DNA of 41,764 nt from an uncultured Erysipelotrichaceae bacterium (GTDB taxonomy: Bacteria > Bacillota_I > Bacilli_A > RFN20 > CAG-826). The translations under genes were made by a program, and so were the position numbers. The DNA lies in assembly GCA_902800905.1 (NCBI GenBank), contig CADCGC010000010.1, positions 1-41,764 on the forward strand, read 5' to 3'. Under the pieces are notes generated by a model that saw nothing but the letters and a program-made list of their open reading frames with translations, was not told where the DNA came from and made no database searches. Numbering within the stretch: position 1 is the first letter of the stretch; every line of letters starts with the position of its first letter. Positions 2,363 through 15,733 of this stretch are shown here, piece after piece.

Positions 2363-3484
2363 ATGGCTGAAAAGAAATACGTTTACGCCTTTGAGGAAGC
2401 TTACGGATTAGGTAAGGAACTCTTAGGTGGTAAAGGTGCTGGCTTAGCTGAAATGACACATATTGGTGTCCCAGTCCCAGAAGGATTCACAATTACAACA
2501 GAAGCTTGCACACTCTACTATGAAAGTGGCAAAAAGATTCCAGAATTTGTTAAAGAACAAGTTTTCGCGGCAATCAAAGAAGTCGAAAAGAAAACCGGAA
2601 AAACATTCGGTGGCGACCACAATCCACTTTTAGTCTCAGTCCGTTCTGGCGCTCGTGTTAGTATGCCAGGTATGATGGACACAATCTTAAACTTAGGTTT
2701 AAACGACAAAACCGCTGCTGCTCTTGCAAGAGAGACAGGCAATGAAAGATTTGCGATGGATAGCTTCCGTAGATTCATCCTTATGTTCACAAACATCGCC
2801 AAAGGTCATCCAAGAACCGATATGGACAAGATGCTTGATGATTTAAAGAAGGAAAAAGGCTACAAGCTCGATACAGAAGTCACAACCGAAGAATTAAGAG
2901 AATTAGTTGCTAAATATAAAGCATACTACAAGAAGACATTTGGTGAAGATTTCCCATCAGATCCAAAAGAACAATTAATGGAAGCTGTTGCTGCGGTCTT
3001 CAGAAGCTGGGACAACCCACGTGCTAACATTTACCGTATGCAATACTCAATCCCATATTCATGGGGAACCGCTGTTAACGTTCAATCAATGGCCTTCGGT
3101 AATAAAGGCGAAACATCTGGTACCGGTGTTGCTTTCTCAAGAAACGCTGCTACAGGTGAAAGAGAAATCTCTGCTGAATATTTACCAAACGCACAAGGTG
3201 AAGACGTTGTTGCAGGTATTAGAACACCATTACACATCGATGAATTAAAGAGACGTATGCCAGATGTATACGATCAATTCGTCAAAACAATTAAAAACAT
3301 GGAACTCCACTATCGTGATATGCAAGATATGGAATTCACAGTCGAAGAAGGAAAATTATACTTCTTACAAACACGTTCTGGTAAGAGAACACCAGCCGCT
3401 GCCTTAAATAATCACAAAAGAAGAAGCTGTTCTCAGAATCGATCCAGTTTCATTCGACAAATTACTATTACCAAACTTCGATAA
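2363..3484 (+). pseudogene. ppdK: Pyruvate phosphate dikinase, N-terminal part (frameshifted)
   Basis: Pyruvate phosphate dikinase interconverts pyruvate, ATP and phosphate with phosphoenolpyruvate, AMP and pyrophosphate. This piece holds the N-terminal nucleotide-binding domain: GGKGAGLAEM near residue 20, SVRSGARVSMPGMMDT near 90, and FLQTRSGKRT near 345. The frame then runs off after AAL and ends 35 residues later in unrelated sequence. The true continuation, ITKEEAVLRIDP, resumes in another frame at 3411. Compared with the family, about 11 residues (the helix normally written xIAxDLVxEGx) are missing. Only four bases stand where 33 are expected, a net loss of 29 nt. Codon use stays that of a highly expressed gene on both sides, so the lesion is recent, strain-specific or an assembly error. 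Strong AGGAGG ribosome binding site; transcribed toward the origin. Confidence 0.85.
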
Positions 3485-4979
3485 AGATGACTTAGCAGCT
3501 GCTCAAAGCAGATTAATTGCTAAAGGTAACCCAGCTGGCCCAGGTGCTGGTACAGGTGCTATCGCATTCACCGCTGAAGAAGCAGAAGCCAGACACGCCG
3601 CTGGCGAAAAAGTCGTTCTCGTTCGTGCTGAAACTTCCCCAGAAGATTTAGCAGGTATGATCGCATGTGAAGGTATTCTCACAATGCGTGGTGGTATGAC
3701 ATCACACGCTGCTGTCGTTGCTCGTGGTATGGGTAAATGCTGTATCACAGGTTGTGCTGCTGCATTAATCGATGAAGAAGCAAGAACCTTAACAATCGAT
3801 GGCAAAGTTTACACCGATAAGGACGTCTTATCATTAGATGGTTCCACAGGTAGTGTCTACTCTGGCGATATCAAGAAAGTCGCACCAGACCTCTCCAGTG
3901 GTAACTTTGGTCGTTTAATGTCTTGGGTTGATGAAGCCAGACAAATGAAAGTCAGAACAAACGCTGACACACCAAGAGATGCTCACCAAGCCAAATTATT
4001 CGGTGCTGAAGGTATCGGATTATGCCGTACAGAACATATGTTCTTCGACAAAGACAAGATCTTCTCATTCAGAAAGATGATTCTTGCTGAAACAAAAGAA
4101 GAAAGAGTTGCTGCGTTAGCAGAAATCGAACCATTACAACAAAAAGACTTTGAAGGCTTATTCGAAGAAATGAATGGTTTGAACGTTAACGTTCGTTTAC
4201 TAGATCCACCTCTACATGAATTCTTACCACAAGAAGAAGACAAGATTGAAGAGCTTGCAAAAGCAACTGGTCATACAGTGGAATACATTCATAAGAGAAT
4301 TGAAGAATTACATGAATTCAACCCAATGATGGGTCATAGAGGATGCCGTTTAGACGTCTCCTATCCAGAAATTGGTGAAATGCAAACCAAAGCCATCGTT
4401 AAAGCCGCTATCGCAGTTAACGCAAGAAAAGGTTTACATATCGAACCAGAAATCATGATTCCATTAACCTTAGACCTTAAGGAATTCAAGTTCGTTAAAG
4501 CTATCGTTACAAGAACTGCTGACGAAGTCATTAAAGCCGCTGGTGTTAACATGAAATACCATGTTGGTACAATGATTGAAATCCCAAGAGCAGCCTTATT
4601 ATCAGGTGAAATCGCTGAAGAAGCAGAATTCTTCTCATTCGGTACAAACGACTTAACACAATTAACATTTGGTTTCAGCCGTGATGATGCTTCCAAATTC
4701 TTACCAGATTACTATGGCAACAAGATTTTCGAAGAAGATCCATTCAAGACCTTAGATCAACACGGTGTTGGTAGATTAATCAAGCTTTCTGTCAAAGAAG
4801 GTAGAGCTACCAGACCAGAATTACACGTTGGTGTCTGTGGTGAAACTGGTGGAGAACCAAATTCCATCCAATTCTACCATGATGCAGGTTTAGACTATGT
4901 CTCCTGTTCACCATTCCGTGTTCCTGTGGCTAGACTTGCTGCTGCTCAAGCTGCAATTAGAAGCCCAAGAAAGAAATAG
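3408..4979 (+). pseudogene. ppdK: Pyruvate phosphate dikinase, C-terminal part (frameshifted)
   Basis: This frame is open from 3408 to the stop at 4979, and its first ATG is at 3657. It contains the phosphohistidine domain with the catalytic His in GGMTSHAAVVARG, and the PEP/pyruvate barrel with RLLDPPLHEFLP, GTMIEIPRAALL and FGTNDLTQLTFGFSRDD. The catalytic Cys is in GVCGETGGEP, where most family members have GEHGG. An independent product from 3657 would lack the first part of the phosphohistidine domain and has no good ribosome binding site, so it is unlikely to be a working separate protein. With the N-terminal piece the full enzyme would be about 875 residues. The sequence shows no decay besides the one junction. 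A terminator with a UUCG loop follows. Confidence 0.85.
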
Positions 4980-13198: not shown

Positions 13199-13333
13199 TT
13201 AAGCAGTTAATTGCTTACGACCTTTAGCTCTTCTTCTAGCTAAAACTTTTCTACCATTAGCGGATTTCATTCTCGCTCTGAATCCAGCTTTGTGAGCATG
13301 TTTCACTTTACTTGGTTGATATGTTCTTTTCAT
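13199..13333 (-). CDS. rpmH: 50S ribosomal protein L34
   Basis: A 44-residue, highly basic protein starting [20 protein letters not shown] and continuing with [20 protein letters not shown], the near-invariant L34 sequence. GGAGG lies upstream of the ATG (reverse complement CCTCC at 13344-13348). It is first in the leftward operon next to oriC, the classical bacterial position, so dosage is highest during fast growth. Confidence 0.97.
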
Positions 13334-13367: not shown

Positions 13368-13397
13368 ATTATAAATGTATTTATAAATTAAAGTCAA
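13368..13397 (-). promoter_or_regulatory. rpmH promoter
   Basis: TTGACT (reverse complement at 13392-13397), an 18-nt gap and a perfect TATAAT (13368-13373) form a strong vegetative promoter driving rpmH-rnpA-yidC-jag and probably beyond. Confidence 0.8.
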
Positions 13398-13402
13398 AGA
13401 AA

Positions 13403-13424
13403 TGTGCATATGCGTATATGCACA
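13403..13424. repeat. Palindrome TGTGCATAT-GCGT-ATATGCACA
   Basis: Perfect 9-bp arms with a 4-nt centre. It lies inside a 25-nt run (13402-13426) of strict purine-pyrimidine alternation, a sequence class that can adopt Z-form or cruciform structure under supercoiling. Confidence 0.85.
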
Positions 13425-13526
13425 CAGAAATTTTAATTTTTGTAATCAAAAATTAATTTGAAAAATATTTGATGACTCGATTAATTATAAAGATTAATGC
13501 GCAATTTATGTGTATAAATTATTCAT

Positions 13527-13555
13527 AAATAACGATTTAAAATAAATCGTTATTT
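13527..13555. repeat. Perfect 13-bp inverted repeat
   Basis: AAATAACGATTTA (13527-13539) and TAAATCGTTATTT (13543-13555) are separated by AAA. No T tract follows on either strand, so it is not an evident terminator. Confidence 0.9.
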
Positions 13556-13650
13556 AAAATATGCGCAGAACATACATATAGAGACAAAATCCGACTGCAT
13601 TTAGATCAATTTAGCGAATATGCACATTTCGCATGTATAATATACACATT

Positions 13651-13675
13651 TAAAGACTTCATATTGAAGTCTTTA
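13651..13675. repeat. Perfect 11-bp inverted repeat
   Basis: TAAAGACTTCA (13651-13661) and TGAAGTCTTTA (13665-13675) are separated by TAT. Neither side has a terminator-like T tract. Confidence 0.9.
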
Positions 13676-13764
13676 TACATATCATGCGCATCATATGGTT
13701 ATGCTAAGTAAATAGTGTTTCTTTAGACATGTACGCTTATGTTATGCGCATAAAATATACAAAC

Positions 13765-13788
13765 TAAAAACTTGTATACAAGTTTTTA
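13765..13788. repeat. 24-bp perfect palindrome
   Basis: The half site TAAAAACTTGTA is followed directly by its reverse complement with no spacer. It is symmetric like a dimeric protein operator and lies between rpmH and the DnaA boxes. Confidence 0.9.
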
Positions 13789-13897
13789 AACATAATACAC
13801 GCACATCATACACATATATGCAATTTAAAACGGCTCCTGGTGTATCGGTTATGACGATCAAATATTGAATTCTTAGTCAGTGTTACCATCTCACCGA

Positions 13898-13933
13898 TTA
13901 TCCACATTTTTTCTATCATTTACGTTATCCACA
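13898..13933 (+). other. DnaA boxes 1 and 2
   Basis: Two perfect TTATCCACA boxes at 13898-13906 and 13925-13933, same orientation, 27 bases apart. Confidence 0.9.
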
Positions 13934-13958
13934 ATTAACAATGGTTATTAGATTTCAA

Positions 13959-14016
13959 TTTGTAGTGTAATAAGAATAAGCTTTGCTTATTCATATGAAT
14001 ATCATTAAACTACAAA
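13959..14016. repeat. Large imperfect inverted repeat between DnaA boxes
   Basis: Outer arms TTTGTAGT (13959-13966) and ACTACAAA (14009-14016) enclose GAATAAGC-TTT-GCTTATTC (13974-13992) and the palindrome ATTCATATGAAT (13989-14000). It separates the two perfect boxes from the phased cluster. Confidence 0.7.
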
Positions 14017-14021
14017 AAAAT

Positions 14022-14071
14022 TAATCCACAAAAATCCACTTTTTCAACACACTATCCACCGTTTATCCACA
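14022..14071 (+). other. Helically phased DnaA box cluster
   Basis: Five box-like 9-mers in one orientation start at 14022 (TAATCCACA), 14032 (AAATCCACT), 14041 (TTTTCAACA), 14052 (CTATCCACC) and 14063 (TTATCCACA, perfect). Spacing is 9-11 bases, one helical turn, suitable for a DnaA filament on one face. Confidence 0.7.
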
Positions 14072-14080
14072 TTCAAAAAT

Positions 14081-14144
14081 TGTGGAAAACTTTTTTCTAA
14101 TTCCCTTAAGGGATTTGCGTTTCCCGTTTAAGTTATGTGGAAAA
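14081..14144 (-). other. Two reverse-oriented DnaA boxes
   Basis: TGTGGAAAA at 14081-14089 and 14136-14144, each one mismatch from TGTGGATAA. The palindrome TCCCTTAAGGGA (14102-14113) lies between them. Confidence 0.75.
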
Positions 14145-15608: not shown

Positions 15609-15665
15609 TTTATTAAAAATAAATAATCTTCTGTGTTAGAATTGTTTGTAAGAGACTTTGCAAAG

Positions 15666-15682
15666 TTATCCACATTTCCACA
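15666..15682 (+). other. DnaA boxes at the unwinding region
   Basis: A perfect TTATCCACA (15666-15674) is followed directly by TTTCCACA (15675-15682). They point toward the AT-rich tract just downstream. Confidence 0.85.
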
Positions 15683-15733
15683 GAGATAATAATAATTAAT
15701 AAAAATAAATAATATAAAAAAGAAGGTAATTCT
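15683..15733 (+). other. Candidate DNA unwinding element with DnaA-trio-like repeats
   Basis: After GAGA come three TAA triplets (15687-15695) and then an almost pure A/T stretch to the dnaN ribosome binding site. A double-stranded box pair next to repeated TAA/TAG-type triplets and AT-rich DNA matches the Bacillus basal origin unwinding system. With the upstream boxes this makes a bipartite origin. Confidence 0.65.

Follow-up and report, generated by a model that had tools for sequence, protein, structure and literature searches.

What are three perfect inverted repeats doing in a row between rpmH and dnaA, beside the predicted replication origin (oriC) of an uncultured Erysipelotrichaceae bacterium? 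The window, that is the whole stretch of 41,764 nucleotides analysed here, is one entire contig of a 1.85-Mb draft genome (assembly 94% complete), and it was compared with rumen and gut Bacilli and Erysipelotrichaceae assemblies; dnaA was located in 55 of the 59 related genomes. The repeats (IR1 to IR3; Table 1) lie within about 390 bp of extra sequence in the 889-bp rpmH-dnaA gap, with the rpmH promoter on one side and the DnaA boxes on the other. All three had been reported in a preliminary description of this DNA and are indeed present, IR1 being one base longer per side than was given there.

The origins of Bacillus subtilis and Clostridioides difficile are bipartite, with oriC1 in the rpmH-dnaA gap and oriC2 in the dnaA-dnaN gap (PMC7561715). 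The present locus is similar in its gene order, rnpA-rpmH-dnaA-dnaN, in its DnaA boxes, clustered in the upstream gap and apparently also in the downstream one, and in its AT-rich sequence. As in the upstream part (oriC1) of a bipartite Bacillota origin, the rpmH-dnaA gap has five DnaA boxes (13898-14144). On the dnaA-dnaN side the sequence shows TTATCCACA and TTTCCACAG together with a repeat rich in A+T at about 15665-15715, a candidate for the second cluster, to which an unwinding region and DnaA-trios would belong. The locus differs in carrying a hairpin array, which is undescribed in PMC7561715, and in an rpmH-dnaA gap about twice as long as that of most congeners.

Table 1. Features of the rpmH-dnaA region, in window coordinates
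Feature	Position	Strand	Remark
rpmH (ribosomal protein L34)	13199..13333	-	sequence
rpmH promoter TTGACT-18-TATAAT	13368..13397	-	expansion starts immediately upstream of its -35 box
TGCGCA site 1	13498..13503		sequence
TTATACACA (DnaA-box type)	13509..13517	-	plus three one-mismatch copies in the array
IR1, perfect inverted repeat, arms 14, loop AAA (TAAATAACGATTTA AAA TAAATCGTTATTTA)	13526..13556		DNA hairpin -10.1 kcal/mol, either strand
TGCGCA site 2	13562..13567		sequence
TGCACA, degenerate site, in register (59 and 64 from neighbours)	13621..13626		sequence reading
IR2, perfect inverted repeat, arms 11, loop TAT	13651..13675		-8.3 kcal/mol
TGCGCA site 3	13685..13690		sequence
TTATGCGCATAA, 12-bp perfect palindrome around TGCGCA site 4 (TGCGCA at 13745)	13742..13753		G002 form GTTATGCGCATAAC
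IR3, perfect palindrome, arms 12, no loop	13765..13788		-6.4 kcal/mol as hairpin with 4-base loop
CGCACA, degenerate site, in register (repeat D7)	13800..13805		sequence
DnaA box TTATCCACA	13898..13906	+	
DnaA box TTATCCACA	13925..13933	+	
oriC hairpin element GTAGTGTAATAA - stem - ATTCATAT...TTAAACTAC; here GTAGTGTAATAAGAATAAGC TTT GCTTATTCATAT...TTAAACTAC	13962..14013		among DnaA boxes
Core hairpin GAATAAGC TTT GCTTATTC	13974..13992		covariation across 14 species
DnaA box TTATCCACA	14063..14071	+	
DnaA box TTTTCCACA	14081..14089	-	
DnaA box TTTTCCACA	14136..14144	-	
dnaA	14223..15608	+	

The repeats, whose centres are 122 bp (IR1-IR2) and 113.5 bp (IR2-IR3) apart, form a cluster that is real and peculiar to the present origin, given the background rate, the shuffles and a survey of other dnaA genes. 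With arms of at least 11 and loops of at most 8, they are the sole perfect repeats of the 41.7-kb window, and 398 kb from 20 other contigs hold only six; the background of one per 73 kb is based on 440 kb of the 1.85-Mb genome, with nine such repeats, three of them IR1-IR3. At that rate at least three repeats in 262 bp have a probability of about 8e-9, and about 1.6e-4 clusters of this kind would be expected in a genome of equal size. No dinucleotide shuffle of 13501-13800 (0 of 2000) contained even two repeats with arms of at least 11 and loops of at most 3. A survey of the 77 kb that precede 80 other dnaA genes gave three repeats of such size, at most one per locus, and all three are pairs of opposed DnaA boxes. 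Further copies of the array were found neither in the same genome nor in the genus outside this locus and its counterpart in the species G002.

The array could in principle work as RNA. The preliminary description was right that terminator T tracts are absent: none follows IR1-IR3 on either strand (the tails are AAATATGC, TACATATC and AACATAAT), nor did a terminator scan find any, and intrinsic terminators were rejected. A known structured RNA family was also rejected, as no Rfam match reached the gathering score within the window. The same missing T tracts and Rfam matches, with no strong promoter inside the array, speak against the earlier suggestion that the repeats are end structures of small transcripts. 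A minus-strand transcript towards rpmH, or a leader, might still fold into the hairpins, and the folding energy is low on both strands (z -5.3 and -5.7). Read on the minus strand, TGCACA at 13621 and the A/C mismatch in the third hairpin of G002 would become G-U pairs, and that strand also has a terminator-like hairpin at 13425-13402. However, such G-U-compatible changes are too few to decide the matter, and the region lies upstream of both the rpmH and the dnaA promoters. The related hairpin conserved across the genus, described below, is without a G-U state in 14 species and has AAA or TTT loops alike, which suits DNA and not one RNA strand. A structured RNA is thus distinctly unlikely.

Two kinds of short site accompany the repeats. 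Four of the five TGCGCA copies in the window fall within 253 bp (P about 1.5e-9); TGCGCA-type sites recur every 55-64 bp, and every second interval holds an inverted repeat. TTATACACA-like boxes with at most one mismatch number four in the array, against 0.7 expected. Within the array, the TGCGCA palindromes and the additional TTATACACA boxes resemble sites for sequence-specific proteins. The repeats had themselves been proposed as sites for a dimeric protein, a role that the TGCGCA palindromes fit better, as the arms of the repeats differ from one another and between species. In this alternative, double-stranded sites read by sequence, acting on rpmH or oriC, would be either the repeats or, more likely, the TTATGCGCATAA palindromes. 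In keeping with this, TGCGCA is strongly clustered and extends to TTATGCGCATAA or, in G002, GTTATGCGCATAAC, and several genus members have related alternating motifs upstream of the rpmH -35 box. A sequence-read operator should stay constant, however, and the hairpin arms have in common only their TAAA...TTTA ends; moreover, TATGCGCAT occurs at just three other places in the genome, leaving no visible regulon. We regard dimeric-protein sites as an unlikely account of the array. The roughly 60-bp spacing of TGCGCA is irregular in G002.

The expansion of the gap is common to the present genome (G000) and G002 only, which the DnaA tree pairs as sister species (support 94/83). In both, the extra sequence separates the -35 box of rpmH from the DnaA boxes. 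Among the genus members whose gap could be measured, its length is 889 bp here, 840 bp in G002, 661 bp in G004 and mostly 435-500 bp in the others. The G002 array comprises a hairpin with arms of 10 and loop AAA, a second with arms of 12 and loop AA, and a third, read off the sequence, with arms of 13 and one mismatch (ATACACGACGAAA/TTTCGCCGTGTAT), together with four TGCGCA sites and four exact TTATACACA boxes, one of which is overlapped by a stem. In 1000 shuffles, the G002 numbers of hairpins, of TGCGCA sites and of boxes were never attained. The two arrays are collinear to a degree that composition does not account for (global score z 4.3, 0 of 300 shuffles), in agreement with the ordered array that had been suspected. 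Locally they match best over the IR1 unit, which runs from TATGTGTATAA to TGCGCA.

Arms diverging between relatives without compensation had been named as the outcome that would speak against structured elements. IR1 withstands this check: between it and the collinear G002 hairpin, seven of ten pairs differ on both sides, three are the same and none has changed on one side only, a comparison of one unit in two species in which the stems are matched by aligning their AAA loops. IR2 and IR3 have no G002 counterpart at the corresponding places; therefore, turnover is fast, with hairpins gained and lost, which speaks for a mutational share in the array.

Several other identities were considered for the array and its surroundings and rejected. 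A plasmid, phage or mobile-element insertion was set aside, there being no similar plasmid or phage DNA and no further genome copies. A ParB/parS centromere was rejected since the 94%-complete assembly gave no ParB_N (PF02195) match; the lack of a detected PF02195 ParB is unusual for a relative of the Bacilli, and the gene may be missing from the assembly. The sequence TGCGCATAA resembles the XerC arm of E. coli dif, yet no matching XerD arm was seen at the right spacing, and an origin location with repeated sites is the wrong place for a Xer/dif-like site. Z-DNA was suggested by a 25-base alternating purine-pyrimidine tract at 13402-13426, but such tracts also occur elsewhere. This tract, which lies close upstream of the -35 box of rpmH, doubles as a hairpin (TGTGCATATGCGTATATGCACA); other genus members have differing hairpin-like or alternating tracts at the equivalent place, and its loop appears inverted between L009 and L010 (TAT/ATA). 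Elsewhere in the window, a pyruvate phosphate dikinase-like gene (2363-4979) is seemingly split by a frameshift near 3484-3657 into ORFs of 373 and 440 aa, which appears to be assembly error or decay.

Closer to dnaA lies a hairpin element, arguably of more interest than the array itself, that occurs in 14 genus members including the present one, always upstream of dnaA at oriC and in single copy in each genome searched. Across the 14 species, five of the eight pairs of its inner stem vary on both sides, three are invariant, none has changed on one side only, and every sequence is free of G-U pairs; GTAG/CTAC, the outer stem, is mostly unchanging. Over the hairpin as a whole, six pairs show changes on both sides and 98.2% of cells are paired, compared with 31-38% in slid controls, and none of 500 shuffles matched either the pairing or the covariation. 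This strict covariation next to the array, and the change of the IR1 stem in both arms together, favour the cruciform that had been among the first suggestions. Related genera (L023, L024, L041-L048), as well as G016 and G004, have a three-base A/T-loop hairpin at a near-equal distance from dnaA, the loop in the related genera lying at -220 to -244 and the closing pair being C-G in most. Matches to a covariance model of the genus hairpin are confined to the genus. Searches of open-access literature on hairpins or cruciforms at dnaA-type origins, judged mostly by titles and abstracts, gave no description of the element. Position, single copy and genus-wide persistence speak for selection on the core hairpin.

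Inverted copies of TGTAGTKTAAT flank the element. Sister genera (e.g. L043, L044, L045, L047 and L048) have the motif TTWTAWACTACA close to a DnaA box and ahead of the core hairpin, upstream of dnaA. In the focal genus, motifs similar to it (TTAMACTACA) stand on both sides of the hairpin, in inverted orientation; this motif is possibly the site of an origin protein.

The loop of the core hairpin is informative about the molecule that folds. L009 (TTT) and L010 (AAA) have opposite loops and 22 differences over their 499-bp gaps; L015 (AAA) and L016 (TTT), again close genomes, have opposite loops too. Template switching at inverted repeats can invert a short spacer that lies between perfect arms (PMC8604942), and this has also been found in bacterial RNA genes (PMC8794818). 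Since the AAA/TTT flips fit such spacer inversion, the core hairpin probably forms as DNA, and the flips, the absence of G-U states and the indifference between AAA and TTT all suit a hairpin made of DNA.

Template switching also underlies the view that the array is a mutational by-product, in which an unconstrained AT-rich gap close to the origin gained quasi-palindromes that were then perfected during replication, leaving it functionless even if the genus hairpin is functional. The zero one-sided changes and the inverted loops are as expected from this process (PMC8604942, PMC8794818), the perfect arms and paired changes resemble the short inverted repeats that it homogenises, and the turnover of hairpins between the two sisters agrees with it. 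It leaves unexplained, however, why three repeats should fall within 262 bp when 77 kb upstream of other dnaA genes has nothing of the kind, and why TGCGCA and TTATACACA co-cluster in both sisters; the present hairpins also differ from homogenised repeats in their fixed origin position and in the conservation of the core hairpin across the genus. A purely mutational origin of the array seems rather doubtful to us.

Given the above, we suggest, with about even confidence, that IR1-IR3 are DNA hairpin (cruciform-capable) elements in an oriC1 that has expanded, oriC1 being the half of a bipartite Bacillota origin that lies between rpmH and dnaA. The array is non-random and common to sister species, its pairing is kept as its letters change, and a similar covarying hairpin lies genus-wide at the origin. 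Under this scenario, the arms would fold back under negative supercoiling or while single-stranded in replication, template switching at the folded DNA would keep them identical, and selection would retain hairpins near the DnaA boxes. Their job would most likely be structural, as supercoil-sensitive elements that take up or report torsion or as elements bound by a structure-specific protein, and they may thereby tune how DnaA assembles or how the strands open between the promoters of rpmH and dnaA. Extrusion would be costlier for IR3, as it is without a loop. Co-clustering with two protein-like kinds of site, and the lack of a similar array upstream of other dnaA genes, speak for a function. 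On the other side, a stem that stays strictly paired as its letters change may owe this to selection on structure, template switching or both, and perfect arms can be obtained by template switching without selection; the array is probably under selection, though the case is weaker than for the core hairpin, as it occurs in two species and a single hairpin is positionally comparable.

Small extruding DNA hairpins have a precedent in living cells in the promoters of the bacteriophage N4 vRNAP, short hairpins that extrude at physiological supercoiling (PMC4496689). Like these, the present hairpins are short and combine conserved with freely exchangeable stem positions. The N4 hairpins, however, serve a phage polymerase as promoters and have defined loop bases, whereas those described here, known from sequence and hairpin energies, have A/T loops and longer stems and imply no such polymerase. 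In the A site of the ABC-primosome, DnaA works from a DnaA box held in a hairpin of single-stranded DNA (PMC6127211). The present origin is similar in combining hairpins with DnaA boxes, one G002 stem even overlapping TTATACACA, but it was not assigned to this class, because no stem in the window, whether of IR1-IR3 or of the core hairpin, contains a DnaA box.

Bacterial origins are usually pictured as sequence-specific boxes and an AT-rich region. We raise, as a tentative possibility, that this lineage of rumen-type Bacilli may have an origin in which hairpins signal by shape and not by sequence, with one old covarying element per genome, next to the DnaA boxes, and an added array of three in one branch, and in which initiation would be tuned by supercoil-driven extrusion or by a structure-specific protein. 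If true, DNA shape would be a heritable part of oriC, and these bacteria would offer a natural place to ask about cruciforms at a chromosomal origin in living cells.
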